From positions 4,836,001 to 4,900,000 of the forward strand of contig NZ_CP070499.1 of the NCBI RefSeq assembly GCF_016925615.1: DNA of 64,000 nt. Reading direction: 5' to 3'. The first letter of the stretch is position 1. Every line of letters starts with the position of its first letter. This document shows positions 42,360 to 60,609 of the stretch, one piece after another. The position numbers were made by a program, and so were the translations under genes. Source of the stretch: Natronosporangium hydrolyticum. Lineage in GTDB: Bacteria; Actinomycetota; Actinomycetes; Mycobacteriales; Micromonosporaceae. Under the pieces are notes generated by a model. That model did not search any database and was not told the DNA's origin. It was given only the letters and a program-made list of their open reading frames with translations.

Positions 42360-42683
42360 ATGACGGATCTGTGGAACGTGTCGACAGCAGTGGAAGATCG
42401 GCAGGCGGCGGAGGTTCTTGCCGAATCAGCGCTCATGGCAAAGCTCGCCGCCAGCGCTCAGCTTGTCGGGCCGGTTGGCTCGATGTTCTGGCACCACGGC
42501 GAGTTCGGAAGCGCGCAGGAGTACCAGGTGATCTTCAGGACTACCGCTTCTTGCTACCAAGCGCTCCAACAGCACCTGATCGACAACCACCCTTGGAAGA
42601 ATCCGGAGGTCACCGCCGTGTCCCTGGCTGCAGCGTCACCGCAGTACGCCCGGTGGGTGGAGCAGACAGTTGCCGAAGATTGA
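42360..42683 (+). CDS. CutA-like divalent-cation tolerance family protein
   Basis: 107 residues. The pattern follows CutA1: VEDRQAAEVLAESALMAKLAASAQLVGPVGSMFWHHGEFGSAQEYQVIFRTTASCYQALQQHLIDNHPWKNPEVTAVSLAAASPQYARWVEQTV, with the trimeric ferredoxin-like fold's E-Y-Q-V-I-F-R-T strand, the NHPWKNPEV turn (HPYEVPEI in CutA) and the SPQYARWV end. The CutA Cys near SxYxW is not conserved. The role of CutA is unclear. The last 74 bases overlap the convergent regulator gene. Confidence 0.7.
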   Translation: MTDLWNVSTAVEDRQAAEVLAESALMAKLAASAQLVGPVGSMFWHHGEFGSAQEYQVIFRTTASCYQALQQHLIDNHPWKNPEVTAVSLAAASPQYARWVEQTVAED

Positions 42684-43893
42684 ACACTTGCTCAGCCCTC
42701 GTGCGCAGGTCGGCCACAGCAGGCTGTACCGGTTCCATGCGACCGATGAGGTTCCTAATCCGCTCGTGTGGCCGTACCGAACCCACGCCTGCGCACAGAT
42801 CCATGGCCTTGGACGCAACCGCACACGCCTGCTCGATCTCGTTAGCCTCCAGGTAGGCGTCGGCGAGGAACGACAGGTACAACCCCTTGTCACGTCCATG
42901 GGTGTCGTCGTAGCAATCCAGGGCGTCCTCCAGTGCTTTGATCGCCCGTAGCGGCCGACGCAGCGCTGCCCAGCAACGCCCGGTCATGATGTCGTGTTCC
43001 AGGCCGTCGACCCAGTACACCCAGTCCGGCTCGGCCGCCTGAGCGGAGACGGTGAGGGCGTCAGCTGCGATGTCAAGGTGCCGCTGGGTCTGCGAGGCGT
43101 CGCCGATGTTGGCGTGCGCCCATGCCCGCCTGCAGTGCAACAACGTCCTCACTTTCGGAGGGCTACCGCGCTCGGCCCACTCACATGCCGCAGTAAGGTC
43201 CTCGATCGGAGGCTCGCCTACCGTGAGCCTCTGATACCCCAGGAACGCGAACGCGTTCCCGGTAAGCGAGGGGTCGCCCGCCTCCTGGGCAGCTTGAAGG
43301 CTCAGCTCGTACATGTGCCGCGCCTGTGGCTGCCAGCCAGCGTCGAAGGCAGCCCATCCCGCGAGCTGGGCTTGCTCGGATAGCAAAGCCAACAGCTGCC
43401 TGCCCGTGGCTTCGGGATAGCTTCCCTCGTGCAGCAGGAGTGCGGTGGCCTCGACTTCCTCAGCGAACAGTTCGTAGGTGTCGGCGCCGCCAAAGTAGTC
43501 GTCAAGACGCCGCAGGCGTGCGGTGTTCATCAGCAGCTGCCGAACTAGGTTTCCGCCCAGCTGGCGACCCGCCTTCAAATGATCCATCAACGGTGCCAGG
43601 GCCACCGCTGATGCTGCGACGCCCAGGAACTCCCGCCGCGGCAACAACGGTGCGGGCTGCCCTTCCTGCCCTAGCTGGGCGAGTCTAGCTAGATCGCCAC
43701 AGGCGTTGAGGGCGTTGTCGATCAGCTGGGCGGTTTCCGCGTCAGGGACGACCCGCCCGGTCTCGATCTGGTAGAGCTTCGACTTGCTGGCCAGTGTGAG
43801 CCGAGCAAGATCACGAAAGGAGATGTTGCGCTGCTTCCGTAGCTCGCGCATATGGCTGCCGAAGCCAGAGTCGACAGTAGAGCGGCGTGGCAT
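42610..43893 (-). CDS. XRE-family regulator with tetratricopeptide-like C-terminal region (left flank of FxLD cluster)
   Basis: 427 residues from ATG 43893 (MPRRST). HTH at about 10-68: MRELRKQRNISFRDLARLTLASKSKLYQIETGRVVPDAETAQLIDNAL. After a short PRREFLGVAASAVAL motif, the remainder is helical repeats (e.g. QARHMYELSLQAAQEAGDPSLTGNAFAFLGYQ, RRPLRAIKALEDALDCYDD), as in peptide-sensing TPR regulators. A close paralogue lies at 53711-54871; both share the RLTLASKSKL-x-x-IETG core. It faces away from the methyltransferase gene, so it is a likely cluster regulator. Confidence 0.88.
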   Translation of the reverse strand: MPRRSTVDSGFGSHMRELRKQRNISFRDLARLTLASKSKLYQIETGRVVPDAETAQLIDNALNACGDLARLAQLGQEGQPAPLLPRREFLGVAASAVALAPLMDHLKAGRQLGGNLVRQLLMNTARLRRLDDYFGGADTYELFAEEVEATALLLHEGSYPEATGRQLLALLSEQAQLAGWAAFDAGWQPQARHMYELSLQAAQEAGDPSLTGNAFAFLGYQRLTVGEPPIEDLTAACEWAERGSPPKVRTLLHCRRAWAHANIGDASQTQRHLDIAADALTVSAQAAEPDWVYWVDGLEHDIMTGRCWAALRRPLRAIKALEDALDCYDDTHGRDKGLYLSFLADAYLEANEIEQACAVASKAMDLCAGVGSVRPHERIRNLIGRMEPVQPAVADLRTRAEQVFNLRQLSAPPTGRTAVTLQPGTRR

Positions 43894-43900
43894 CGTAACC

Positions 43901-43918
43901 CCCAGGTGGAGGACTGGG
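43901..43918. promoter_or_regulatory. CCCAG-N8-CTGGG element before the left regulator
   Basis: CCCAGGTGGAGGACTGGG, 7 bases upstream of the regulator's ATG. It differs in one base from the element at 54883-54900 before the paralogous regulator. The hyphenated dyad suits a dimeric HTH operator, probably for autoregulation. Confidence 0.6.
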
Positions 43919-44146
43919 AAGGCTGCCGGCCTCCACACCGGCGGCCGAAACAGATCCTACCGGCCACCCGTCCACAACCGCCAGCGGTTCAACGGCGTCC
44001 ACCCAGCGATGGACAGCCGTCGCGATGGTGGACAACGGGTGGACAGCTCGTCCGTTGACCCCAGTCATCCAACGTCCATAGGCTCTACTGCACACGGAAG
44101 CCGACTCGCTCCCGTGTGGGACAGCCAAGCGGGTTAGGGGTGTTGT

Positions 44147-45373
44147 GTGACCGACGACAAGACAGCAAGATCGCGAGACACTCTCACGGACCGCCTTAAG
44201 GCCGATGACATGATCCGCTCGGAGGCGGTCGAAGCGGCGTTTCGACGGGTTCCACGGCACCTGTTCGTCCCCGCTGGCACATCGATCGAGGAGGCCTACA
44301 GCGCCGATGCTGCCCCACCAACCAAAAAGGATGTCGAAGGCCAGATCATCTCGTCGGTGAGTGCACCGTTCTTGCAGGCGCAGATGCTGGAGCAGGCGCA
44401 GCTGCATCCCGGCGCGAGCGTGCTGGAGATCGGCTCCGGAGGCTACAACGCCGCGCTGATCGCTGAGGTTGTCGGCCCGGCTGGTCGAGTGGTCAGCGTC
44501 GACATCGACCCGGACGTCACCGCCTGGGCGCGCGAAGCCCTCGATGCCAGCGGCTACGGCAACCGCGTCGAGACGGTGTGCGCTGATGCTGAGCACGGTC
44601 TAGCCGGATCGTCGGTTTTTGATGCGATCATTGTCACCGTGGGGGCGTGGGACATCCCCCCGGCCTGGCTGACGCAACTGGATCATGACGGGACGCTTTC
44701 GGTGCCGCTGCGAATGAACGGGGTCACCCGCTCGATAGCCTTCGCCAGGCAGGCCGATCATCTGGCGAGCACCTCGGCGGAGGTTTGCGGGTTCGTGCCT
44801 ATGCAGGGTCTGGGCGAACGGCGCGAGCGGGTGCTGCAGCTTCCCGACGGACACGGGCGGTACGTGAGGCTGCGCTTCGACACCGGCGCGCCGGAGGATC
44901 CCAATTTGCTGGACGGTGTACTCGCCGACATGAAGGTCCGGGTGTGGTCCGGGGTGGAGTTTCCGAACGGCGTCTCGTTCGCTGACCTGCACCTGTGGAA
45001 TGCGTGTTTCCTTCCCGGTTTCTGCAAGGTGGCTGCTGATGAGGGCACAGAACTGGCCCAGGACCGCAAGAGCTGGTTTCCGTTCGGGTGCGTTTTCATC
45101 GACTCGTTCGCTTACCTCGCGGTGCGCCCGGCCATGGACGGAGCCGGGATTGAGTTCGGGGCCGGCGCCTACGGCCCCAACGGCGAGCAGGCCGCTGCGG
45201 CGATGGTGGAGCAGATTCAGGCGTGGGACCGGCGGGCACGCCGCGGTCCAGTGCCCACGTTCGGGTTCTGGCCCGACGGCAGCGACCGGAGCCACATCCC
45301 GGATCACGTGGCACTGCTGGAGAAGCACCATGGCCTGGTCACAGTCTCGTGGCCGCGGGCTAGCCGGCCGTAG
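44147..45373 (+). CDS. FxLD-system methyltransferase 1 (protein L-isoaspartate O-methyltransferase-like)
   Basis: 408 residues. The first about 220 residues are PIMT-like: RRVPRHLFVPAG, then SAPFLQAQMLEQAQLHPGASVLEIGSGGYNAALIAEVVGPAGRVVSVDIDPDVTAWAREAL (SAM motif I with the shortened GSGGY loop), VETVCADAEHG and FDAIIVTVGAWDIPPAWLTQL. The C-terminal about 180 residues are the extra domain of the FxLD-associated enzymes. Related lanthipeptide methyltransferases methylate an Asp to make an aspartimide/isoAsp. GTG start, and the gene is 54 bases before the precursor gene. Confidence 0.9.
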   Translation: MTDDKTARSRDTLTDRLKADDMIRSEAVEAAFRRVPRHLFVPAGTSIEEAYSADAAPPTKKDVEGQIISSVSAPFLQAQMLEQAQLHPGASVLEIGSGGYNAALIAEVVGPAGRVVSVDIDPDVTAWAREALDASGYGNRVETVCADAEHGLAGSSVFDAIIVTVGAWDIPPAWLTQLDHDGTLSVPLRMNGVTRSIAFARQADHLASTSAEVCGFVPMQGLGERRERVLQLPDGHGRYVRLRFDTGAPEDPNLLDGVLADMKVRVWSGVEFPNGVSFADLHLWNACFLPGFCKVAADEGTELAQDRKSWFPFGCVFIDSFAYLAVRPAMDGAGIEFGAGAYGPNGEQAAAAMVEQIQAWDRRARRGPVPTFGFWPDGSDRSHIPDHVALLEKHHGLVTVSWPRASRP

Positions 45374-45427
45374 GCCGAAACGTCCAGAAGAAGAAACAAC
45401 CCCTACCTTCTGTAAGGAGTCGTATTC

Positions 45428-45616
45428 ATGCCACCAGTGTTGATGCTTGACGAGGCCGACACCTCCACGCCGATCCCGGATGAAGAGTTCGAGCTAGACC
45501 TGCGGGTGGTACAAACAACCGCCGCGGTGACCTCGATGAGGTGCGACACCAGCGACAACTGCGGCGCCACCTGCGGCACCAGTGCGTGCAACAGCGGCTC
45601 GCTCGACCCCTCCTAG
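45428..45616 (+). CDS. FxLD-class lanthipeptide precursor
   Basis: 62 residues. The leader contains the class motif FELD (F21-D24) in DEEFELDLRVVQ. The probable core after it (about 30-62) is rich in Thr/Ser and has Cys39, Cys45, Cys49 and Cys54 (MRCDTSDNCGATCGTSACNSG), giving up to four lanthionine-type rings, plus Asp40, Asp43 and Asp60 as candidates for methylation. Strong ribosome site (AAGGAG) before the ATG. Located between the methyltransferase and LanB genes. The leader cleavage point is not certain. Confidence 0.9.
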   Translation: MPPVLMLDEADTSTPIPDEEFELDLRVVQTTAAVTSMRCDTSDNCGATCGTSACNSGSLDPS

Positions 45617-45629
45617 ATCCGGTGTCCGG

Positions 45630-45660
45630 CCGGGGGTCCGCGCGATCGGCGGACCCCCGG
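45630..45660 (+). terminator. Intercistronic hairpin after the precursor gene (attenuator)
   Basis: CCGGGGGTCCGC (45630-45641) pairs perfectly with 45649-45660 around a 7-base loop, 14 bases after the precursor stop. Downstream bases are not T-rich, so partial termination or mRNA stabilisation is likely, giving more precursor than enzyme. Confidence 0.75.
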
Positions 45661-45697
45661 CGTCCCTCTTGCCGCCACCCCGTTGAGGAGGGTGACC

Positions 45698-48600
45698 GTG
45701 GCGACCACCCCCGTGCGCTACCAGCACCAAAACGTGATGATTGTGCGCGCCAGCACCGACCCGGGTGACCTGGACCGGCTGGGCATTGACCTTGACGATC
45801 CGGCCGCGGTGGCCACCGAGGGCCGGGTATGGCTGACGAAGCTGTGGTCCCGCACCGACGTTCGCGAGGCGCTTTCGCTGGCCAGCCCCACCCTCGCGGC
45901 ACGCGTAGAGCAACTGCTCGACCGCGACCCCGCCGTGACCGCCTCAGCGGACCTACGCCGAGCGGTGCTGTCGGCGGCGGGCTACTTGATGCGCTGGCAG
46001 CGGCGAGCGACACCGTTCGGGTTGTTCGCCGGAGTCACTGCCGCTGCGGTCGGGCCCGCCGCAGCGAGCGTCGGCCAGGACCATCGGGCGGTGGTGCGCG
46101 TCGACGCGGACTGGCTCACCGCTTTGGTCGACCAACTAGAGCAGCACCCGCCGCTGCTGCAGCGGCTAACGGTGGTGGCCGACACCGCGGGAATGGTCCG
46201 CGACGGCCGGTTCGTCGTCGCCGGACGCGCTGATGCCAGCGCGGGGACGCCGGGCCCGCTGCGGGAAGTGTCCGTGCGCTACACCCGGCCAGTCCAGGCG
46301 GTACTGGCCGCCGCTGCCGCGCCGGTGCGTGTGGAGTCCCTGGTGCCGCGGGTCGCAGCCGCGTTCCCGACCACACCGCCGGCCAAGGTCGCGGCGTTGG
46401 TGGATGCCCTGATCGCCCAGCGCATTCTGCTCACAAGCCTGCGGGCCCCCATGACGGCCGTTGATGGGCTCGCGCACCTGGTCGAGGTGCTGCGGGCCGT
46501 CGACGCCGCCGAACTGGCCGACATCGCCCCGATGCTGTCCCAGCTAGAGAAGATCCGCGAACAGCTTGCCGACCACAACACCTGCCCGGACCAAAGGCAG
46601 GCTGCCGCCTTTCGGGCCTCGGCCGCCGCGCACATGGACAGCCTCGCCACCACCGCCGGGCATGTCCTGGCCGCCGACGTGCGCCTTGGCAGCCACATCA
46701 CCCTGCCAGAAAACGTGGTGGAGGAGGCGCAACAGGCCGCCTCGGTGCTGCTTCGGTTGACCACGAAACCGTTCGGAACCCAAGCGTGGCTGGACTACCA
46801 CGCCCGATTCCGCGTCCGCTACGGCCCGGGAGCCCTCGTTCCGGTACGGGATCTGGTGGCCGGCTCAGGGCTCGGCTACCCAGCCGGCTATCTGGGTGGG
46901 CCACGGACCCGGCCGACGTGGCGTGCGCTGACCGAACGCGACGCGGCGCTGCTGGCGATGATCCAGCAGGCCGCCGCCGACCAGGCCGACGAGATTGATC
47001 TCAGCGACGCCGACGTGGACACGCTGACCGTCGGGGAGCACACCGACCTGGTTGCGCCCCAGCGTGTGGAGCTCGGCGTGGTGCTGGACGCGGCATCGAC
47101 CGGTGAGATCGATCGTGGCCGGTTCCGGCTGTGGGTTACGGCTGTGCCGCGCGCCTACACCAGCATGGCCGGACGGTTCACATACCTGCTCGATCCAACC
47201 GACCGGCGGCGGCTTGCCGCCACTTACGCGGCACCAGGAGGGGATGATGTGGTGGCGGTGCAGCTGTCATACCCACCGCGGCGACCCCACAACGAAAACG
47301 TCGTGCGGATTCCCCGACTGCTGCCCGATGTCGTCTGCCTGTCCGAACATCACGACGGTGACACGATCCGCCTGGACGACCTCGCCGTGACCGCCGACGC
47401 CGAGCAGATGTACTTGATTCAGAGCTCCACCGGGCGACGGGTGGTACCGCGGATCCCGCACGCACTGGACACCTCGGTGCAGAGCCCGCCGCTGGCCAGG
47501 TTCCTGGCCGAGGTCGCCGACGCACGCAGCGCCGTGTTCGGCCCATTCGACTTCGGTGCAGCCCGCACCCTGCCGCACACCCCGCGAATCCGCTACCGGC
47601 GTACCGTGCTGGCCGCCGCCCGCTGGATCCTCACCGCCGCCGACGTGGCAACCGATGCCGGTTGGCAGGCCGGGCTGGAGTCGTGGCGGCGACGGTGGCG
47701 CGTGCCGGCGCGGGTGGTGTTGCGCGACGGGGAGCTGCGGCTACCCCTTGAACTCGACCAGCGCCTAGACCGCACACTGCTACGCGGGCGGCTGGAGAAG
47801 TCCGGGCGGCTGGAGCTGCAGGAAGACGTTCCCTCGCAGGCACCTGGCTGGATTGGCCGGCCTGCCGAACTGCTGATCCCGATGACCACCGCCGCCCCGC
47901 AACCCCGGCCGGTACCGACAACCGCGCCGCCAGGGCCGGTGCATCGACCGGGCAGCTCCCGCCTGCTGCACGCCAGGCTCACCGGCGACCCGGCACACTT
48001 CGACGACCTGTTGGTCTGCCACCTGCCCGCACTCGTTGACGAGCTATCCAGACTCGGATTGCGTCGCTGGTGGGCGCACCGGCACCGCGACCACCCCGAC
48101 GGCGACCAACACCTCGCCATCGTTGTCGACCTCACTACACCGGACCGGTACGCCCCGACGGCCGCTAAAGTGGCTACCTTCGCCGCCGGCCTCCACCAGC
48201 GGGGCCTGCCCGCCGACATCGCGCTCGTGCCGTATGCGCAGCAGCCGGGCCGCTACGGCGAAGGGCCCGCCCTAGCCGCCGCTGAACTGGTGTTCGCCGC
48301 GGACACGCAGGCAGCCATAGCCCAGATCGCTACGGCGCGAGCCTGCGGCGTTCCGGCCCAGGCGCTCGCCGCGGCGTCGATGGCGCAGCTCGCCGCCGCG
48401 TTCGCGCCGGACCCGGCCACCGGCTACCGGGCACTGTTGGCATGCCTGCCGCAGCAGACCGGGCCGCTGGACCGGTCCACAGCTGCTCTCGCCCGACACC
48501 TTTCCGACCCCGCTGGCGGATTCAGCAGGCTCCGCGGTCTACCAGGCGGGCAGCGGATAGTCGAAGCCTGGCACGAACGAGACGCGGCCCTCGCCGCCTA

Positions 48601-48766
48601 CCACCACAACCTGACCGGTCAGCGCGATCCATCCACCGTGCTGCGCAGCCTGCTGCACGGACACCACCGCCGAGCCCTCGACCTCGCCCCGGAGACCGAG
48701 AAGACGACCGGCCGGCTCGCCCGCGCGGCCGCCCTGCGCCGCCTAGCCCCCTCCGCAGCACAATGA
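45698..48766 (+). CDS. lanB: Class I lanthipeptide dehydratase LanB (full length)
   Basis: 1022 residues from GTG 45698, six bases after GAGGAGG. It uses glutamyl-tRNA to glutamylate Ser/Thr and then eliminates to Dha/Dhb. The N-terminal two thirds are the lantibiotic dehydratase domain (RRATPFGLFAGVTAAAVG near 105 is diagnostic; ENVVRIPRLLPDVVCL). The last about 270 residues (SSRLLHARLTGDPAHFDDLLVCHLPALVDELSRLGLRRWWAHRHRD) are the SpaB_C/thiopeptide-type elimination domain. Its stop overlaps the LanC start by ATGA. Confidence 0.93.
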   Translation: MATTPVRYQHQNVMIVRASTDPGDLDRLGIDLDDPAAVATEGRVWLTKLWSRTDVREALSLASPTLAARVEQLLDRDPAVTASADLRRAVLSAAGYLMRWQRRATPFGLFAGVTAAAVGPAAASVGQDHRAVVRVDADWLTALVDQLEQHPPLLQRLTVVADTAGMVRDGRFVVAGRADASAGTPGPLREVSVRYTRPVQAVLAAAAAPVRVESLVPRVAAAFPTTPPAKVAALVDALIAQRILLTSLRAPMTAVDGLAHLVEVLRAVDAAELADIAPMLSQLEKIREQLADHNTCPDQRQAAAFRASAAAHMDSLATTAGHVLAADVRLGSHITLPENVVEEAQQAASVLLRLTTKPFGTQAWLDYHARFRVRYGPGALVPVRDLVAGSGLGYPAGYLGGPRTRPTWRALTERDAALLAMIQQAAADQADEIDLSDADVDTLTVGEHTDLVAPQRVELGVVLDAASTGEIDRGRFRLWVTAVPRAYTSMAGRFTYLLDPTDRRRLAATYAAPGGDDVVAVQLSYPPRRPHNENVVRIPRLLPDVVCLSEHHDGDTIRLDDLAVTADAEQMYLIQSSTGRRVVPRIPHALDTSVQSPPLARFLAEVADARSAVFGPFDFGAARTLPHTPRIRYRRTVLAAARWILTAADVATDAGWQAGLESWRRRWRVPARVVLRDGELRLPLELDQRLDRTLLRGRLEKSGRLELQEDVPSQAPGWIGRPAELLIPMTTAAPQPRPVPTTAPPGPVHRPGSSRLLHARLTGDPAHFDDLLVCHLPALVDELSRLGLRRWWAHRHRDHPDGDQHLAIVVDLTTPDRYAPTAAKVATFAAGLHQRGLPADIALVPYAQQPGRYGEGPALAAAELVFAADTQAAIAQIATARACGVPAQALAAASMAQLAAAFAPDPATGYRALLACLPQQTGPLDRSTAALARHLSDPAGGFSRLRGLPGGQRIVEAWHERDAALAAYHHNLTGQRDPSTVLRSLLHGHHRRALDLAPETEKTTGRLARAAALRRLAPSAAQ

Positions 48767-49923
48767 CCACACCACCACAGTCCCTCACCGCCGCCGAAGC
48801 ATCCGCACAGTCTTTGGCCTCCGGTGCAGCAGGACCCGCGTTGTTGCACATCGAACTGGCCATGACCGGCACCGGAGGCTGGGCCACAGCCCACGAGCAC
48901 ATCCGCCAGGTCACCGCAGGCCCCGTCGACGCCGCCGCCCACACCGGACTGTTCTACGGCGCCCCGACAGTCGCCTTCCTCCTGCACACCGCCGGCGCGG
49001 ACGGGAAACCACGCTACCGGCAAGCAGCCGCGACACTCGACCGGCACATCCTCCACCTGACCCGGCAGCGGGTAGCCGACGCCAACGAGCGGATAGACCA
49101 CGGCGAAAACACTCGGTTCAGCGAGTACGACCTGCTCTACGGCCTAACCGGAATCGGGGCGCTCCTGCTGCGACACCTACCCGGCAGCGACACCCTCGCC
49201 GACCTGCTGCACTACCTCGTCCGGCTGACCGGACCGCACCCCGCCGACGAGCGTCTCCCGGGCTGGTGGGTGGCCCACGACCCGGACCCGCTGTTGCCGA
49301 CCCCCGGCGGGCACGCCAACCTCGGCATGGCCCACGGCGCGGCCGGCCTGCTCGCCCTGCTGGCCCTCGCCACCCGCAGCGGTGTCCTGGTCGACGGCCA
49401 ACGCGAGGCGATCGACCGGCTCCTTGCCTGGTTCGACACCTGGCGCCAAGACGGACCCGAAGGACCCTGGTGGCCACAATGGCTCACCCGGGACGAGTTG
49501 CGCACCGGCCGCGCAGCCCAACCCGGCCCCGGCCGCCCCAGCTGGTGCTACGGCACCCCCGGCATCGCCCGCGCACTTCAACTCGCCGCGATCGCCACCG
49601 GCGACCAGCTACGCCAGCGAGCAGCCGAGGACGCCCTCGCCGGCTCTATAAGCGCACCGCGTCTCCAACTGATCACCGAGCCAGGGTTATGCCACGGCGC
49701 GGCCGGTCTCTACCAGACCATCAGCCGCGCCGCCCACGACGCCGCCAACCCGACCCTCCGCCGACAGCTGCCCGCACTGGCCGACCGGCTGGCGCAGCAC
49801 AGCAGCAGCGCCCACGGCGACGGGCTTCTCACCGGTTCAGCCGGTCTCACCCTGGCTCTGGAGACCGCACGAAATAGACAACCGCCACGATCAGGATGGG
49901 ACGCATGCCTACTGATCAGCTGA
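48763..49923 (+). CDS. lanC: Lanthionine synthetase cyclase LanC
   Basis: 386 residues from ATG 48763. It catalyses addition of Cys thiols to dehydro-residues. The alpha/alpha barrel repeats show GAAG/HGAAGLLALLALA and GLTGIGALLLRH. Zinc ligands: Cys in SWCYGTPGIARAL (about 265) and Cys-His in GLCHGAAGLYQTI (about 310). Size and motifs are typical. Coupled to LanB upstream, overlapping the next gene by 28 bases. Confidence 0.93.
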   Translation: MTTPPQSLTAAEASAQSLASGAAGPALLHIELAMTGTGGWATAHEHIRQVTAGPVDAAAHTGLFYGAPTVAFLLHTAGADGKPRYRQAAATLDRHILHLTRQRVADANERIDHGENTRFSEYDLLYGLTGIGALLLRHLPGSDTLADLLHYLVRLTGPHPADERLPGWWVAHDPDPLLPTPGGHANLGMAHGAAGLLALLALATRSGVLVDGQREAIDRLLAWFDTWRQDGPEGPWWPQWLTRDELRTGRAAQPGPGRPSWCYGTPGIARALQLAAIATGDQLRQRAAEDALAGSISAPRLQLITEPGLCHGAAGLYQTISRAAHDAANPTLRRQLPALADRLAQHSSSAHGDGLLTGSAGLTLALETARNRQPPRSGWDACLLIS

Positions 49924-50879
49924 TACCCGCCCTGCCCGACGACCTCGCCCGCGGCGTGCTCGCAGTACTCGCCGGTTCTGATCCGTCCACCACCGCCGCA
50001 GACCTTGGCATCACCTCGGACGACCTGACCGACGCCGTACAGCTGTATCAAGCCGCCGGACTGGCGGCACTGGAGCAACGAGCCGAGCACGAATGGTACG
50101 ACCTGCGGCTACGGTTCCCCGACTGGCATACCGCTGAAGCAGCGGCGGCCAACCGACTCGCCCCCGCCCTGGACCAACTCCTGCAGGAGGGGGAGACAGC
50201 CGGCTGGTGGTTCCTACGTAAGCACCCCTTCTGGCGGCTGCGCCTCCACCACGCCGACACCACGGCCGTGGCGCGCCTACTCGAACAGCTGACCAGACAA
50301 GGCATCCTCACCGGCTGGCACCAGACCATCTATGAACCAGAAACGGCCGCCTTCGGTGGCCCAGCGGCTATCGACGCCGTTCACGCATTGTCTTGCGCCG
50401 ACAGCCGCGGCCTGCTCAACTACGTCCGACAACCATCGCCCGCCTTAGGGCGCCGAGAAATGTCGATGCTGCTGTTCACCGCGTTCCAGCACGCGGCAGG
50501 ACTCGACTGGTTCGAACAAGGCGACGTGTTCGACCGAGTCGCGCGGCTGCGCCCCACGCCCACCGGCTCGGATGACCAGCGTGTCGAAACGCTCTCCGCC
50601 GACCTCTCCAGCATCCTGACCGCGAACGCCAACGCCCACACCCCGCTGTTCGCGCCCGGCGGCCCGGCAGCTTTCGCGAGCCGCTGGCGGACCGCGTTCA
50701 TCCAGACTGGCCACATGCTCGGCGAGGCGGCGGCACGAGGTCGACTCGACCGCGGACTCCGCGCGGTTATCGCACAAATAGCCATCTTCCACTGGAATCG
50801 ACTCGGCCTACCCGCCCGAACGCAAGGGATCCTCGCCCACAGCGCAGCAACCGCGCTATTGGGCACCCGGCTTGGCTGA
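49896..50879 (+). CDS. Stand-alone thiopeptide-type bacteriocin biosynthesis (SpaB_C-like) protein
   Basis: 327 residues. The SpaB_C/TIGR03891-like fold is indicated by EWYDLRLRFPDWHTAEAAAANRLAPALDQLLQEGETAGWWFLRKHPFWRLRLHH and GWHQTIYEPETAAFGGPAAIDAVHALSCADSRGLLNYV. Such proteins act as elimination subunits or, in other systems, as C-terminal modifying enzymes. LanB already has its own copy, so a distinct or auxiliary role is likely. ATG 49896 or 49905; overlaps LanC. Confidence 0.85.
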   Translation: MGRMPTDQLIPALPDDLARGVLAVLAGSDPSTTAADLGITSDDLTDAVQLYQAAGLAALEQRAEHEWYDLRLRFPDWHTAEAAAANRLAPALDQLLQEGETAGWWFLRKHPFWRLRLHHADTTAVARLLEQLTRQGILTGWHQTIYEPETAAFGGPAAIDAVHALSCADSRGLLNYVRQPSPALGRREMSMLLFTAFQHAAGLDWFEQGDVFDRVARLRPTPTGSDDQRVETLSADLSSILTANANAHTPLFAPGGPAAFASRWRTAFIQTGHMLGEAAARGRLDRGLRAVIAQIAIFHWNRLGLPARTQGILAHSAATALLGTRLG

Positions 50880-50989
50880 TTCTCCGCCCAGCAGCGCCCC
50901 TCCCGGCCGCCTCCACACGACAATCCAAACAACAGCCACTGGTCTCACACGCCGAGGCTCGCCAGTCGCAAAGTCGAAAGGAAAAGACG

Positions 50990-52216
50990 ATTACCACCGT
51001 AAGACAACCACCAACCAGCCCGACCGGCGACGCCGAGCTGCGCCGGGCCCTCGTCGAACGAATCAGCGCCCGTCGTCAGCTATCAGACGCCGTTGCTGCT
51101 GCGATGTACAAGGTCCCGCGGCACGTCTTTGTGCCCACCGCCTCTCTTGAGGAGGCGTACGCAAACGACACCGTGGTCACTCGGCGCGACGACACCGGCA
51201 TCGCTACAAGCTCGGCCTCGGCCCCCTGGCTAGTGGGACAAATGCTTGACCAACTCCAGCTCCAGCCAGGTATGCGAGTTTTGGAGATCGGGGCCGGAAC
51301 CGGCTACAACGCGGCGTTGATCGCCGAGCTGGTCGGCCCGACCGGTCACGTGACCGCCGTGGAGATCACCCCGGACGTGGCGGCCGACGCCCGCAAAGCG
51401 CTGGCGACCATCGGCGCGACCAACGTCGAGATCGTCTGTGGCGACGGCGAGTACGGCCACCCGCAGGCCGCGGCGCATGACCGAATCATCTCCACCGCCG
51501 GAGTATGGGAGATCCCAGATGCGTGGGCGGAGCAGCTGTCCCCGGAAGGGGTTCTGGTCGCTCCGCTGCGGATGCGGGGTCTGACCCGATCAGTGGCCAT
51601 GACACGCGAGGCCGGCGTGTGGCGCAGCCACAGCACTGTCACCTGCGGATTTATGCCGATCCGCGGCAAAGGCGAAATGCCCGAGCGCAACATCCGCCCG
51701 GCGGAGGATCTGTTCGTCCGCTTCGATGACGGGCAGGACGCGGATGCGCTGGCTCTCGCGCAGGCGGCCGCCAGCCCTGGCCGGGTGGACTGGTCAGGAG
51801 TGCTCATCGACAGGTCGCTGGAACTGCTGGATTTCTACCTGGCCGAGTTGGATGGGTTCTGCCGCGTGCTGGCTTCGCCCTCGATCACCGAACGGGGCCT
51901 GGCCGAACCCGTCAACGACTGGGGAAGCATGGGCGCGGCCACAGACGAGGCGCTCGGCTACCTGACCAAACGCACCTGCCTTGACAACCCCTACCTGTAT
52001 GAGCTTGGCGTGTGCGCCTACGGGCCGCGCGCAGCGGCGATGCTCGCCGACCTGACCGAACGGGTTCACCGCTGGGACCGCGACCGCGAGTCGATCACCG
52101 GGGTCCGCATCGAGATCCACCCACCCGGGCAGGGCGAGATGGCCGACGCGCTAATGATCGCGGATAAGCGACGCTCGCGGGTGGTCGTCCGGCCGGTCCG
52201 GCAGGAATCCAAGTAG
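50990..52216 (+). CDS. FxLD-system methyltransferase 2 (PIMT-like), probable non-canonical start
   Basis: PIMT core: VFVPTASLEEAYANDTVVT, SAPWLVGQMLDQLQLQPGMRVLEIGAGTGYNAALIAELVGPTGHVTAVEITPDVAADARKAL (canonical motif I, one residue longer than in enzyme 1), VEIVCGDGEYGHP, and a C-terminal extension like enzyme 1. No in-frame ATG, GTG or TTG occurs between the upstream stop and 51104. A start at 51104 would cut off the helix before VPRHVFVP. ATT at 50990 follows AAAGGAAAAGACG and gives 408 residues, exactly the length of enzyme 1, so I use it; the fallback start is ATG 51104. Confidence 0.75.
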   Translation: MTTVRQPPTSPTGDAELRRALVERISARRQLSDAVAAAMYKVPRHVFVPTASLEEAYANDTVVTRRDDTGIATSSASAPWLVGQMLDQLQLQPGMRVLEIGAGTGYNAALIAELVGPTGHVTAVEITPDVAADARKALATIGATNVEIVCGDGEYGHPQAAAHDRIISTAGVWEIPDAWAEQLSPEGVLVAPLRMRGLTRSVAMTREAGVWRSHSTVTCGFMPIRGKGEMPERNIRPAEDLFVRFDDGQDADALALAQAAASPGRVDWSGVLIDRSLELLDFYLAELDGFCRVLASPSITERGLAEPVNDWGSMGAATDEALGYLTKRTCLDNPYLYELGVCAYGPRAAAMLADLTERVHRWDRDRESITGVRIEIHPPGQGEMADALMIADKRRSRVVVRPVRQESK

Positions 52217-52633
52217 CCAAGCCCTCCCACCTTGAAAGACCGCGACGCCGGCCGACCGGAACGTCTTAAAGAAACTGCGGCACGACGTAGGCGACAGTGC
52301 CAAACCGGCGCAGGCCCGCCTCCTCGACCTAGTACCGCGACCCCGACAAGCAACATGAAAGTTCGTCCACCCGATTCACGGTGCGGCGCTCCACCGACCA
52401 CGGCGACGCGGCGGTGATGGAGTCTGGGCCGAGAGGATCCCCGGCCTGACCAAACTGCGGTCCCCGGCCGCTGGCGACCGGGCCAGGGTAGTCGGTGTAC
52501 GTCGGCGGCCGACCGGTACTCCCGCCGACCGCTGGCCGGCGGCGGCCTCGGGGCCCGCGCCTGTGTTCGCTAACTCGCGATAGTCGGCTCCGACGAAACG
52601 CTCATGTCGACGGTCCGTCATCCGTGGCTGACG
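52217..52633. other. Intergenic region without recognised gene
   Basis: 417 bases between the end of the second methyltransferase gene and the end of a convergent small gene. Open frames here are short and have no ribosome site. Probable terminators were not obvious. Confidence 0.4.
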
Positions 52634-52903
52634 CTAATCGGAGAGGCGATCGAGATCCCGACGCATTTGCTCCCGGCACACCTCCGACGCCTCGAACGTG
52701 CCATCGGACAGCGTTCCGTCCTCCAAAGCACCGATAAACTCGTCGGACCAGCTTTCGCAGTCGACTCCGCTGCGGTCCCACAGCACTCCTACCGCGACCA
52801 CTACGGCGACGAGCAGGATTGCCGCCGCTATGGTGCAGTGCAGGAGCCAACGGGTGCGGCGCTGGGGAGCTTGCAGGTCGTGACCGGAGCCCGGAAGACT
52901 CAT
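52634..52903 (-). CDS. Small single-pass membrane protein
   Basis: 89 residues from ATG 52903, nine bases after GGGGAGG. A basic N-terminal stretch (LQAPQRRTRWLL) precedes one transmembrane helix (HCTIAAAILLVAVVVAVGVLW) and an acidic extracytoplasmic tail with two Cys (VDCESWSDEF... EVCREQMRRDLDRLSD). Not recognised; could be an immunity or accessory factor by position next to the FxLD cluster, but nothing in the sequence shows that. Confidence 0.6.
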   Translation of the reverse strand: MSLPGSGHDLQAPQRRTRWLLHCTIAAAILLVAVVVAVGVLWDRSGVDCESWSDEFIGALEDGTLSDGTFEASEVCREQMRRDLDRLSD

Positions 52904-52997
52904 GCAAGGCACCCTCCCCGGCCCCGCTCGGTTTTCACACGATCCGGATCGGCGTCTCCTCGGCCGCGAACCGAGCCACGAACCCAGCCAGCGATGA

Positions 52998-53708
52998 TCA
53001 ACGAGGGTCGAGCAGTCGCAGGGAACTCCTGAACGAGGCGATAAGGCTCTCCAAGAGTGCCCTACCTTTCGCCGGGCTGGCGGCGGACGGCCGGCCCACC
53101 ACCCCGGAAGCGGTGTACGCCTGCATTCCCAGCGTCAGCAGGTGGGGCCGGTGCGGGGCGTCGTAGTCCGCGTCGGCGTAGCTGCCCCGCACCAGGGTGG
53201 GATGCAGGTGCAGCAGCAGCGACGTTTCGAGCTCACCGGCGTGCATGTCGTCGTGGCTGGTGGTTTCCAGACCTGCGTCAACGCGGGCACGGTTCCAGTC
53301 ATCCCGGCCTGGGTACAGCGCCATGACCGGCCCGGCCACCGTCGCCTCCTGGACGACGTTCGAGAGCACGTAGTTGCCGCCGTGCCCATTCACGATCACT
53401 AGCCGGTCAATCCCGCTCGCATGCAGCGACTCGGCCACATCCTTGATCACCGTAGCCAGCGTCGTGGCACGGATGCTTACGGTACCCGGCCACGCCCAGT
53501 GCTCATGCGAGCAGGAGATCGTCAGCGGAGGCAACAGCAGCAGTCGGTACCGCTCGGCCAGCACCGCCGCGATTGACGAGGCGATGATCGTGTCCGTGGC
53601 AAGCGGCAGGTGGTCGCCGTGCTGTTCGTGGCTGCCGACCGGCAGCAGTGCGACACTGGCCCCGAGGGCGCCCACCTCCGGCGATGTCGCGGTCGTAATC
53701 ACATCCAC
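52998..53708 (-). CDS. Creatininase-family amidohydrolase (MftE-like)
   Basis: 236 residues. Metal ligands of the family are present: PVGSHEQHGDHLPLATDT (Glu, His and Asp, about 23-40), VNGHGGNY (His, about 110) and HDDMHAGELETSLLL (Glu, about 160). Members include creatininase and MftE, which trims the mycofactocin peptide. The next upstream gene is a lanthipeptide-type regulator; the two are 2 bases apart, so this enzyme is likely coregulated and may take part in peptide processing, an inference. Confidence 0.85.
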   Translation of the reverse strand: MDVITTATSPEVGALGASVALLPVGSHEQHGDHLPLATDTIIASSIAAVLAERYRLLLLPPLTISCSHEHWAWPGTVSIRATTLATVIKDVAESLHASGIDRLVIVNGHGGNYVLSNVVQEATVAGPVMALYPGRDDWNRARVDAGLETTSHDDMHAGELETSLLLHLHPTLVRGSYADADYDAPHRPHLLTLGMQAYTASGVVGRPSAASPAKGRALLESLIASFRSSLRLLDPR

Positions 53709-53710
53709 TC

Positions 53711-54871
53711 CTACACCCTGCCGTGTTCCCCGGACCCGGCCACCACCCGGGTGGCTGGATGGCCGCCGACGGGCACCGTTGCGGTACGGTCCGCGGCCAC
53801 CTCAGTCACCAGCGACAGGGTGCGTTGCGACCCGGTTTGGAGTCCCAGTTCTCGGGCGGCGGCGGCGTGATCTCGGGCGGCGTCCACGTCACCGGCCAGG
53901 TGCAGCGCGACGGCGAAGTGCGCACGGAAGAACCCCTCGTCCAGGCGCTGGTGGTGCGGCCAGTCGGCCAGCACCGTCTCGAAGTCATGGATCGCCGCCG
54001 CCGGTTCGCCCAGCAGCAGCCGACAGCATGCCTCATACGCGCGTACGTAGACGCTGGTGCAGTGGCTCACCAGCGACGCTGTCTGCGGGTCCTCCGCTGC
54101 CGACTGGTCAACGAGACGGAATGCGGTGCCGATGCTGCGCCGGGTGCCGGTGGCGTCGCCGTGGTGGGCATGTGCCTGTGCCAGGCGTACGGCCGCCAGC
54201 GCTCGCACTCGCGGGGGAAGACCACCGGCCCCCAGCACTGGTTGGACCAGCGCCTCCGCTGCCCCGACCTGCCCTTTCTCGACGGCACGCTGAGCACGTC
54301 GCATGCCCACGTAGGCAGTCAGGGTGACGTCACCGGCTTCACGTGCCATCGACCCGGCGGCTTCGAGCCAACGCCCGGCCTGTTGGTCGTGGCCCTCGTT
54401 GTCGCAGATCCAACTCCCGAACTCGCGCCAGCGTGCAGCGACCACGGTGAGGTCGGTCCGGGCCGGTCTGGCGGCGGTCTCGCGTTGGCTGTCTATGAGC
54501 TGCAGTTCGGTGCTGACGAGGTTGAGTAGTCCGTGTCCTCCCAGCGCGTTATCGGCCGCGGTCAGCACCCTGAGCATGTCGCGCCAGTGCGCGGCGAGAT
54601 CCACGGCCGGTGTTGGCGTCACCGTGTCCTGCGGCAGCTGGACGGCGGCTGGCCGTACCATCGCCGTCAACTCTCCGCCGGCGCCGAGCGCGTCGTCGAG
54701 CCTCGTGGCGGTCTCCGCGTCCGCGGCGACCATCCCGGTTTCGATCTTGTGGAGCTTGGACTTACTCGCCAACGTAAGCCGGCCGAGCTCTCGGAAAGAC
54801 AGGGCGTGCTGCTCCCGCAGGGTACGCATCCGCTGTCCGAAACGGGGGTCAGGCGGCGTGCGACGCGGCAT
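53711..54871 (-). CDS. XRE-family regulator with tetratricopeptide-like C-terminal region (right flank of FxLD cluster)
   Basis: 386 residues from ATG 54871 (MPRRTP). HTH: MRTLREQHALSFRELGRLTLASKSKLHKIETGMVAADAETATRLDDAL. Helical repeats follow (RLAQAHAHHGDATGTRRSIGTAFRLVDQSAAEDP, ACCRLLLGEPAAAIHDFETVLADWPHHQRLDEGFFRAHFAVALHLAGDVDAARDHA). A clear paralogue of the left-flank regulator, with its own copy of the shared upstream element. It probably is cotranscribed with the creatininase-family gene. Confidence 0.88.
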   Translation of the reverse strand: MPRRTPPDPRFGQRMRTLREQHALSFRELGRLTLASKSKLHKIETGMVAADAETATRLDDALGAGGELTAMVRPAAVQLPQDTVTPTPAVDLAAHWRDMLRVLTAADNALGGHGLLNLVSTELQLIDSQRETAARPARTDLTVVAARWREFGSWICDNEGHDQQAGRWLEAAGSMAREAGDVTLTAYVGMRRAQRAVEKGQVGAAEALVQPVLGAGGLPPRVRALAAVRLAQAHAHHGDATGTRRSIGTAFRLVDQSAAEDPQTASLVSHCTSVYVRAYEACCRLLLGEPAAAIHDFETVLADWPHHQRLDEGFFRAHFAVALHLAGDVDAARDHAAAARELGLQTGSQRTLSLVTEVAADRTATVPVGGHPATRVVAGSGEHGRV

Positions 54872-54882
54872 GGTGGGAAGCT

Positions 54883-54900
54883 CCCAGGTGGAGGGCTGGG
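54883..54900. promoter_or_regulatory. CCCAG-N8-CTGGG element before the right regulator
   Basis: CCCAGGTGGAGGGCTGGG, 11 bases upstream of the regulator's ATG, 17 of 18 bases identical to 43901-43918. Same orientation relative to the gene. Candidate operator. Confidence 0.6.
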
Positions 54901-55170
54901 TGGCCGGTCGTATCCGCCGGTCCGATCCACAGCATATCGATATGGTCGGCTGCCGGGCGACCCAGCCAACGGGTGACCCGACTAACGTCGCAATGCCGCA
55001 CAGTGTCCACGCCCAACGCCGACGGCAAGTTGGGCGCTTGTTAGGGGGCGGTGCTCGCGGCGTTCCTGAGAGTCGCCGCGGTGGGGACTGCGGCATGAGA
55101 GCGGTCCGATCTTGGAGGTTAAAGGGGCCTGGCCCGTTGAGGGAGTGTCAGGGCCTCGACCGGCGGCTGC

Positions 55171-58646: not shown

Positions 58647-59605
58647 GGCGGCGTCCGCTGGTCAGCGTGGTGGTGTGCACCTACGCGCGTCCCGAGCCGC
58701 TACGCGCGGCGCTGGCGAGCATCTGCGTACAGGGCGTGGACGGGGTGGAGGCGGTGGTCGTCAACGATGGCGGGCCGGACGTTGCCGGTGTGGTGGCTGA
58801 GTTCGGCGACCGGCTCCCGGTGCGGCTAATCACCCTGCCTACGAACAAGGGCCTGACGGCGGCTCGCCGCAGCGGCATAGGTGCTGCTCGTGGCCGGTTC
58901 GTCGCGTTCCTTGACGACGATGACCTGTGGCTCCCCGATCATCTCTCCGTGGCCTTGGACGGTCTCGACAGCGGGTTGGACCTGGTGTACACGACCTGCC
59001 TAGTCGCCGACCGCGTGCATCACCTCGGCTCCGAAGAACCCGTTTCGGCACGGTACCGGTTCGACTACCCGTTCGACGCCGCACTGTTCGACGTGACGAA
59101 CATGATCCCGGTGACCTCAGTCGTCGCGCGCAGGTTCGACCCCGCGATGCTTCATCGGCATGACGGGGTGCAGGACGACTGGGCGATGTGGCTCGACCTG
59201 GTACGCGGTGCCGGGTGGCGTCTCCTTCACCTGCCGGCGGCCACGACGGTGTATCACCGCATCCCGCAGGCGGCGTCGATGACCGGGCAAGCAGCGAGCA
59301 CCCTGGCCGGGTTGCGGCGGTTCGCCGCCGGGCATCGGCGGATACATCAGCGGTGGCCGGTGCCAAACGGTAGCCGGGCCGGACAGGCACGCCGGTTGCC
59401 GTTCTGGATGTATCGGCTGGTGGAGCAGCGTCACAGCGCCGGGCATGGGGTGTCCCACTACTACTATGAGCGGTGCCTGCCGCTGGTCGCCGCAGCCGTG
59501 ACCGGGCGGATGACCATTAACGCGGCGGTCGACGCGATGGACGTGGCCGTCGCACCTGATGCGGTCGAGGAGAGGGAGCAGGCGGCATGGCGAGTGCTGG
59601 CGTGA
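58643..59605 (+). CDS. Family 2 glycosyltransferase
   Basis: 320 residues. GT-A fold: PLVSVVVCTYARPEPLRAALASICVQG at the N-terminus, EAVVVNDGG, GLTAARRSGIGAARGRFVAFLDDDDLWLPDHL with the DDDD metal motif (about 90-93) and VQDDWAMWLDLVRGAGWRLLHLP (acceptor-side Asp). No transmembrane segments, so a cytoplasmic nucleotide-sugar enzyme. The next frame overlaps by 19 bases. Confidence 0.88.
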   Translation: MRRRPLVSVVVCTYARPEPLRAALASICVQGVDGVEAVVVNDGGPDVAGVVAEFGDRLPVRLITLPTNKGLTAARRSGIGAARGRFVAFLDDDDLWLPDHLSVALDGLDSGLDLVYTTCLVADRVHHLGSEEPVSARYRFDYPFDAALFDVTNMIPVTSVVARRFDPAMLHRHDGVQDDWAMWLDLVRGAGWRLLHLPAATTVYHRIPQAASMTGQAASTLAGLRRFAAGHRRIHQRWPVPNGSRAGQARRLPFWMYRLVEQRHSAGHGVSHYYYERCLPLVAAAVTGRMTINAAVDAMDVAVAPDAVEEREQAAWRVLA

Positions 59606-59880
59606 TCGACCCACCGCTGCGCGCCCGGATACGGGCCGCCCTGCCTGACGCCCAGGTGGACACGGTGCTGCACGACAACGGCAAAGCACTAGTGTTGTCC
59701 GGCACGGTCGCCGGCCAGCGTGCGGTGGTGAAGGTCCTTGTGGACCCGGACCCGTTCTGGGCGGGCAAGTTCCCCGCTGAGATAACGATCTACCGGGCGT
59801 TCGAGGTAGCGCCACCGCCGGCACCGGTGCCGAAGCTGCAACACCAACCGCGCCACGTCGGCCCACTCCGCACGGCAGTA
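59587..59880 (+). pseudogene. Truncated aminoglycoside-phosphotransferase-like kinase
   Basis: The first about 80 residues match the N-lobe of APH/choline-kinase-type proteins: ARIRAALPDAQVDTVLHDNGKALVLSGTVAGQRAVVKVLVDPDPFWAGKFPAEITIYRAFEVAPPPAPVPKL, with the ATP-Lys in VVKVL. After about 59835 the reading frame no longer resembles a kinase and ends in IS256-related DNA. The C-lobe with the catalytic Asp is missing, so the gene is inactive. It was once the third gene of the HprK-glycosyltransferase operon. Confidence 0.75.
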
Positions 59881-60609
59881 CTTCGCCCCTTCGCCGGGCC
59901 CACAGCCCGAGGATCTCCCGCCCACCGTCGGCGGTAACCGCCAGCGCCACGTAGACGGGCCGGTTGGCGACCTGCCCGTCGCGGATCTTCACGTGGATAC
60001 AGTCGATGAAAATCACCGGGTAGATCGGATCCAGCGGCCGGTTCTGCCACTCGCCCATGATCCCCAGCACCCGGTCGGTGATCGTCGAGATGTGATCACG
60101 CGACACCGTCGCGCCGTACACCTCGGCCAGATGCGCGCACACCTCACCAGTGGTCAACCCTTTGGCGGTCAGGCTGATCACCAGATCGTCGATGCCGCCC
60201 ATCCGCCGCTGCCGCTTGGCCACGATCTGCGGGGTGAAACTGGCGTCCCGGTCGCGTGGCACGCCCACCCTGACCGGGCCGACCTCGGTCAGCAACGTCT
60301 TGGACCGGCAGCCGTTACGGCTGTTGGCGCCATCACGACCGGCCGGCTCGTGCTTGCCGTAGCCGAGATGCTCGTCCATCTCCGCTGCCAGCGTGGCCTC
60401 CAGGAACCGTTTGGTCAGCTGCTGCAGCAGCCCGTCGCGGCCCAGCAGCGACACGCCCTGCGCCCGGCCAGCCGGGCCACCAGCTGCGGGTCCAACGCCG
60501 CCGCAGCCGCCTCACCTTTAGGTCCTTCCGGCTGGTGCAGCACCGCCGGCGCCCAGGCGAGGCCGTGGCCCTCGCCCGCCGTCATCGCGGTCCTGGTCTT
60601 GGTCGTCAC
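59877..60609 (-). pseudogene. IS256-family transposase fragment with frameshift
   Basis: The N-terminus reads MTTKTRTAMTAGEGHGLA... ALDPQLVARLAG from ATG 60609, and then a one- or two-base deletion near 60470 shifts to the frame of GVSLLGRDGLLQQLTKRFLEATLAAEMDEHLGYGKHEPAGRDGANSRNG and on to PVIFIDCIHVKIRDGQVANRPVYVALAVTADG (first catalytic Asp). A further frame change occurs near 59890 and the match stops at about 59877, losing the rest of the DDE domain. Dead remnant; terminal inverted repeats were not found. Confidence 0.85.

Follow-up and report, generated by a model that had tools for sequence, protein, structure and literature searches.

The stretch of Natronosporangium hydrolyticum DNA analyzed here (64,000 nucleotides of contig NZ_CP070499.1, positions 4,836,001 to 4,900,000; hereafter the window) carries a class I lanthipeptide gene cluster of the FxLD family. 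Profile searches of the window identified a precursor peptide, the dehydratase LanB, the cyclase LanC, a lone SpaB_C protein and two methyltransferases, MT1 and MT2, which resemble protein isoaspartate methyltransferases (PIMTs; Table 1). Between 42610 and 52216 the order is NsdA-type regulator, MT1, precursor, LanB, LanC, SpaB_C and MT2, with the regulator on the reverse strand and all following genes on the forward strand. Downstream of MT2, the opposite strand encodes a creatininase/MftE-like gene and then a second NsdA-type regulator. Class I membership is given by matches to the glutamylation and elimination domains of LanB (Lant_dehydr_N, Lant_dehydr_C) and to LANC_like, all over cut-off, and FxLD membership by the TIGR04363 score of the precursor together with its FxLD leader and Cys-rich core. 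An initial annotation had described an FxLD lanthipeptide cluster bracketed by two PIMT-like enzymes, and every part it named was present and passed the curated profile cut-offs. The precursor also reads as described there, with a FELD leader, four Cys (39, 45, 49 and 54) and Asp at 40, 43 and 60, as do the different loops of the two enzymes. Its core contains the Thr-x-Asp-x-Cys motif common to relatives, including the Asp of this ring motif, and a ring between Thr41 and Cys45 is predicted, with Asp43 inside it. LanB probably starts at GTG 45698, its longest open reading frame (ORF) running from 45683, and LanC probably starts at ATG 48763. We take the SWCYG and LCHG motifs of LanC to be its zinc ligands.

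Table 1. Features of the FxLD lanthipeptide cluster and its flanks (positions in the window).
Feature	Position	Strand	Evidence
REG1, NsdA-family HTH/TPR regulator, divergent from the cluster	42610..43938	-	NF053720 235 bits, cut-off 75; HTH_31
MT1, FxLD-system PIMT homologue, 408 aa, GSGGY loop	44147..45373	+	TIGR04364 484 bits, cut-off 320; PF01135 125.8 bits
Precursor peptide, 62 aa, FELD leader, core region ...RCDTSDNCGATCGTSACNSGSLDPS	45428..45616	+	TIGR04363 54.0 bits, cut-off 30
Hairpin between precursor and LanB	45629..45661	+	13-bp stem, GC-rich
LanB dehydratase, full length	45698..48766	+	Lant_dehydr_N 695.7 bits, Lant_dehydr_C 75.4 bits
LanC cyclase	48763..49923	+	LANC_like 133 bits; SWCYG and LCHG motifs
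Lone SpaB_C/thiopeptide-type protein	49896..50879	+	TIGR03891 180 bits, cut-off 48.45; Lant_dehydr_C 92.5 bits
MT2, FxLD-system PIMT homologue, 408 aa, GAGTGY loop, probable ATT start	50990..52216	+	TIGR04364 405 bits, cut-off 320
Creatininase/MftE-like amidohydrolase, candidate peptidase, cluster membership uncertain	52998..53708	-	PF02633 227 bits; TIGR03964 141.5 bits
REG2, NsdA-family regulator adjoining the creatininase gene	53711..55096	-	NF053720 103 bits, cut-off 75

Both methyltransferases exceed the cut-off of TIGR04364 ("methyltransferase, FxLD system"), MT2 being scored from 50990, while none of the 14 named control genomes had a match to this profile above that value. Neither reaches the cut-offs of the housekeeping PIMT profiles TIGR00080 (159 bits), PRK00312 (188 bits) and PRK13942 (282 bits), for which MT2 scored 132.8, 153.3 and 155.5 bits and MT1 106.2, 129.8 and 113.6 bits, respectively. 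The cut-off of the graspetide methyltransferase profile TIGR04188 (380 bits) is not reached either (MT1 119.8 bits, MT2 149 bits). Both enzymes have the C-terminal extension of more than 100 residues of the PAMT/LanSA type, the PF01135 match ending at residue 220 in MT1 and 226 in MT2. Their best solved relatives are PIMTs, and MT2 is nearer to canonical PIMTs than MT1 by score, for TIGR00080 as well as for 1DL5 (109.9 vs. 78.9 bits). As MT2 exceeds the FxLD cut-off and misses those of all three housekeeping PIMT equivalogs, it appears dedicated to ribosomally synthesized and post-translationally modified peptides (RiPPs), and the possibility, raised by the initial annotation, that it is a housekeeping isoaspartate repair enzyme is ruled out at the level of family scores.

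Clusters with two such enzymes recur. A survey of FxLD loci for one versus two methyltransferases, as the initial annotation had suggested, was made in a complete sample of 101 genomes, i.e., the source genome and 100 relatives. TIGR04364 was over cut-off in 35 of these genomes, with 56 matches at 51 places, all of which were examined (50 as fetched regions, plus the window). A cluster was counted if LanB scored above 300 bits, and enzymes were counted if they scored above 200 bits in the FxLD methyltransferase search and lay on the LanB strand; the regions spanned 20 kb or less, and an enzyme farther from LanB would escape the one-enzyme calls. LanB was present at 33 of the 51 places, and 5 of these 33 had two FxLD methyltransferases (the window, L065, L054, L060 and L067), two of them, the window and L065, in the source genome itself. 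A wider search, in which the best five candidates per genome were scored for the family and the best four for the class, was over cut-off in at least 164 of 354 family genomes and at least 80 of 394 class genomes and found further pairs. From it and from further searches, 27 pair regions were added, along with 34 further regions with enzymes of the MT1 clade, strong matches or a relative of MT2 (L161 stands outside the counts). The enlarged set comprises 80 LanB loci, of which 53 have a single enzyme and 27 at least two; this proportion is not a frequency, because most of the added two-enzyme loci were chosen as pairs, and 5/33 is the frequency. Five of the 27 regions fetched as pairs did not score as two-enzyme clusters, L105, L116 and L124 having no LanB match and L110 and L118 having the second enzyme on the opposite strand (in L110, LanB was matched a second time as well). 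L150, with two enzymes and a LanB match of only 75 bits, was excluded. In L064 LanB was found and the precursor was not (contig end), L114 nearly duplicates L113, the LanB match of L157 is split over two frames, and the core of L109 was found by a relaxed pattern only.

The other 18 of the 51 places (within L046-L095), some of them on short contigs or contig ends, have FxLD-type methyltransferases over cut-off without LanB above 300 bits in the fetched region and were left out of the one- versus two-enzyme count. They are possibly another kind of cluster, or their enzymes possibly act in trans. That such places are common would fit an MT2 which acts on another peptide, either the second FxLD precursor of the genome or an unlinked one, or which moonlights in protein repair. 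The source genome would fit as well. Six PF01135 matches exceed 100 bits there; four of these pass the FxLD cut-off, and the other two are TIGR04188-like with 295-311 bits (cut-off 380). As all six are RiPP-type, no clear housekeeping PIMT was seen among them. However, MT2 follows SpaB_C on the same strand at a distance of 110 bp, and other FxLD clusters also use this position, some of them with a fusion (PMC7268733). Moreover, a relaxed precursor search did not find a second FxLD-type precursor in the window cluster. We therefore regard another substrate for MT2 as highly improbable.

MT1 and MT2 come from different lineages. In a tree built from 144 enzymes by a quick method, with a midpoint root for drawing only, one side takes in 68 of the 71 enzymes whose genes precede LanB, and the opposite side 30 of the 39 whose genes follow it (for 34 rows, there was no LanB by which to judge gene position). 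The window holds one enzyme of each lineage, and MT1 groups with the short-loop enzymes encoded before LanB. Among the 71 enzymes before LanB, 63 have a short GSGG[YLFM] loop, 3 have a long loop and 5 were unread by the pattern, and among the 39 after LanB, 28 loops are long and 11 short. The sole FxLD methyltransferase of one-enzyme clusters has a short loop in 39 of 53 cases and a long loop in 14. Therefore, the short loop does not indicate decay, and a degenerate, inactive GSGGY loop in MT1 can be ruled out. The loop, called shortened in the initial annotation, is typical of enzymes encoded before LanB rather than unusual. The lineages also bear on whether MT1 and MT2 might form a heteromeric enzyme, with one catalytic subunit and one that recognizes the peptide. 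Tandem or bracketing pairs do recur, as such an enzyme would lead one to expect, but each lineage includes enzymes that are the only FxLD methyltransferase of their cluster, and both MT1 and MT2 keep motif I and the SxSAP region, which is presumably the substrate-binding part. We give this option almost no credence.

Within the genomes searched, the MT2 clade comprises three close members: MT2 itself, an enzyme of L065 (73% identity) and one of L082 (66%), the next relative being G488 at 51%. L065 is the second FxLD cluster of the source genome (3222500-3242400) and has two tandem methyltransferases, one of which is the 73% relative. A profile scan of genome contigs with the MT2 alignment gave an unrelated Prevotella locus as its sole match, and no FxLD enzyme at E 1e-80 or better was among the matches listed in two genomes of the same genus, both drafts.

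The initial annotation proposed that two enzymes and three core Asp could mean two site-specific rearrangements, one Asp per enzyme. Applied to the window, one enzyme (MT1 or, conversely, MT2) would act on Asp43 and the other on Asp40 or Asp60. The three Asp of the core and the different lineages of MT1 and MT2 speak for this, but our comparison of cores did not bear it out. Asp was counted from about five residues before the Asp of the conserved Thr-x-Asp-x-Cys motif through the C-terminus. Exactly one core Asp was found in 11 of the 27 two-enzyme clusters and in 11 of the 52 one-enzyme clusters with a core, so that two-enzyme clusters are not richer in Asp; the rows are related by descent, and no p-value is claimed for these counts. 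The one-Asp cores in two-enzyme clusters rule out one Asp per enzyme as a general rule. Among the one-enzyme relatives of the MT1 clade, 19 of 21 have a C-terminal Asp like Asp60 and 21 of 21 have the ring Asp, a result that is partly built in, since the strict precursor pattern demands that an Asp precede a Cys by one or two residues (the relaxed pattern, used for 31 loci, does not). Members of the MT1 clade also occur in two-enzyme clusters, three of which have one-Asp cores (L104, L107 and L109). For the MT2 clade, the cores of L065 (YMTNDQCGTTCQSACTNTCPS) and L082 (CNPTNDGCSNSCTSVGCSANC) each have a single Asp, at the Thr-x-Asp-x-Cys position, and in L082 the MT2-clade enzyme is the only such enzyme in the fetched region. 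Furthermore, the number of enzymes, one or two, differs among genomes whose cores end in 15 identical residues. L052, L055 and L157 combine the core ending ADTDDGCDTVKGSDC with a single enzyme, whereas L099, L103 and L106 combine it with two; for the core ending EDSCGSTCESACTSC, L059 has one enzyme and L104 has two. An Asp40 counterpart was found only in L147 among the 21 one-enzyme relatives of the MT1 clade, which favors two sites, yet CDT[NS]D cores like the CDTSD of the window occur with one enzyme in L147 and L083. We consider rearrangement at two sites unlikely.

On these comparisons, action of both enzymes at the same site, Asp43, is the simplest reading. We assign a probability of about 0.55 to the proposal that the window encodes a "lanthimiditide" FxLD cluster in which both enzymes act on Asp43, MT1 as the main and MT2 as an auxiliary enzyme. 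LanB and LanC would form the methyllanthionine Thr41-Cys45, a methyltransferase would then esterify Asp43 within this ring, and the ester would close to an aspartimide that opens to isoaspartate (isoAsp) or Asp. These steps are transferred to the window by homology from the published biochemistry of OlvSA. MT1 would be the main enzyme on Asp43, while MT2 would remethylate the hydrolysis products at this position, isoAsp or Asp, and so drive the peptide towards the aspartimide. The recycling role is preferred for MT2 because it scores nearer to canonical PIMTs, which lends weak support.

Several observations weigh against same-site action with this division of labor. The split into a main and a recycling enzyme draws on weak score differences, and the site specificity is extrapolated over 66-73% identity. 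Asp40 is nearly unique to the window (1/21) and could be a new second site, which is formally possible. L112 has three enzymes and three precursors, and a separate peptide for each enzyme is possible there. In addition, L144 and L145, the sole one-Asp loci among the 21, each carry a distant PIMT-like gene, so the case of an MT1-clade enzyme acting alone on a one-Asp core is not clean. Such genes lie downstream in four loci (L067:8986-10389, L099:14896-16140, L144:17204-18286 and L145:17211-18275), have a GTG[ST]GY loop and score 71-88 bits to FxLD enzymes; the L144 copy scores 97 bits for PF01135 and falls under every NCBIfam cut-off listed.

The start codon of MT2 may add a layer of regulation. 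ATG 51104 is the earliest ATG, GTG or TTG codon in the open frame of MT2, and this frame opens before the end of the previous gene. Homology reaches upstream to 51032. Of 138 enzymes with an anchored N-terminus, MT2 is the only one that has no canonical start codon at 20-75 codons upstream of the anchor. An ATT at 50990 is preceded, 7 nt upstream, by the ribosome-binding site AAAGGA, and the relatives have comparable arrangements, with AAAGG, 9 nt and ATC in L065 (7583) and AAGGGGA, 6 nt and ATT in L082 (8850); after the ATT or ATC, all three read [Thr/Ser]-Thr-Val. Between the window and L065, the nonsynonymous and synonymous differences per site (pN/pS) are 0.696/0.792 for the 19 codons before this position, 0.241/0.449 for codons 1-38 and 0.156/0.486 for the remainder. 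The onset of constraint near 50990, together with the upstream homology, places the N-terminus upstream of ATG 51104, which is thereby ruled out as the start and is internal. MT2 probably starts at ATT 50990, ATT/ATC being conserved in all three close clade members, while the 51% relative (L159/L161) probably starts at GTG. Against this reading, internal ATG codons also occur in L065 and L082, so that we only infer the ATT/ATC start. The conserved start suggests limited expression of MT2, perhaps dependent on translation initiation factor 3 (IF3), and in our proposal it would probably keep MT2 synthesis low or IF3-dependent. In Streptomyces, IF3 represses non-canonical starts such as ATC of infC and GTC of sigR (PMC5472188). 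In a bolder version, which we find very doubtful, the two lineages would form a switch on the one ring Asp, with MT2 translated from its conserved AUU/AUC under IF3 and translation fidelity setting the balance of aspartimide, isoAsp and Asp.

Alternatively, MT2 might have been acquired from another FxLD cluster and carry out the same reaction as MT1 without a separate role. The 73% relative in another cluster of the source genome and the matching cores with one or two enzymes would be expected if so. Against such redundancy stand the purifying selection between the paralogues (pN 0.164, pS 0.483 for MT2 vs. L065), the recurrence of two-enzyme clusters in the complete sample and the conservation of the unusual MT2 start codon, and we judge it quite unlikely.

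The absence of a transporter, noted in the initial annotation, agrees with our finding of no transporter match among twelve flanking ORFs, a subset of those at about 37.7-42.2 kb and 55.5-63.6 kb. The absence of a dedicated protease, stated alongside it, is less certain, as the creatininase/MftE-like amidohydrolase could be a peptidase; its TIGR03964 score stays below the MftE cut-off of 172 bits, i.e., it is MftE-like only. Creatininase-like genes beside a regulator are also found near the FxLD clusters L066, L085, L102 and L146, with a partial match in L060. In L102 and L146 the creatininase-regulator pair is on the same strand, directly before the methyltransferase, precursor and LanB genes. 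The source genome has two creatininase/MftE-like genes. On this side, the end of the range first proposed for the cluster, 54871, falls inside REG2. Two transposase genes lie near the right end of the window (59117-60454 and 62438-63613), and the cluster may lie in a mobile region. The segment between precursor and LanB (45614-45682) folds at -36.8 kcal/mol (z -1.84), with 10 of 200 shuffles as good, and the hairpin within it is a possible, modestly supported stoichiometry control.

Recurrent clusters whose two enzymes, judging from the cores, act on the same Asp offer a natural way to ask whether aspartimide, isoAsp or Asp is the goal of the cell. Sets of matching cores with one versus two enzymes (L059 against L104; L052, L055 and L157 against L099, L103 and L106) make this question directly testable. 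The conserved AUU/AUC start, if true, would be a rare case of probable IF3-limited expression of a tailoring gene in a natural-product cluster. The nearest described system is OlvA/OlvSA of Streptomyces olivaceus, the first lanthimiditide, which shares with the window the class I machinery, a methyllanthionine ring (predicted in the window) that encloses a conserved core Asp, and a LanSA-type PIMT homologue (PMC13001092; PMC11285071; PMC7268733). The conserved Asp is methylated by OlvSA only once the LanB and LanC steps are complete, and the ester closes to an aspartimide that opens mostly to isoAsp (PMC13001092; PMC11285071). It methylates isoAsp too, and faster than Asp (PMC13001092). However, these papers describe one methyltransferase, OlvSA, as opposed to two in the window. 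More broadly, the studies consulted treat RiPP PIMTs as one enzyme for one Asp.

The same contrast holds for the wider families. The 1305 PAMT-containing lanthipeptide clusters counted previously (PMC10787088) and the known PIMT-SpaB_C fusions (PMC7268733) have the same enzyme class with a long C-terminal extension and SpaB_C as neighbor or fusion partner, while two such enzymes per cluster are not mentioned in the accessible parts of these reports. Our literature search likewise found no lanthipeptide cluster described with two such enzymes, in coverage that left most subscription papers and supplements aside, and the absence of such a description is thus unproven. For the NCBIfam FxLD system (TIGR04363, TIGR04364), the precursor and both enzymes of the window are over the curated cut-offs, but the name and cut-off of TIGR04364 separate neither the short- from the long-loop lineage nor two-enzyme clusters from others. 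The rare start codon resembles those of sigR and infC in Streptomyces, which limit translation through IF3 (PMC5472188), but in the window the ATT/ATC would open a RiPP tailoring gene, as comparison of the clade members indicates. Collectively, FxLD clusters with a PIMT homologue, SpaB_C fusions and the underlying chemistry are already known, and what is new relative to the literature available to us is the presence of two enzymes per cluster.

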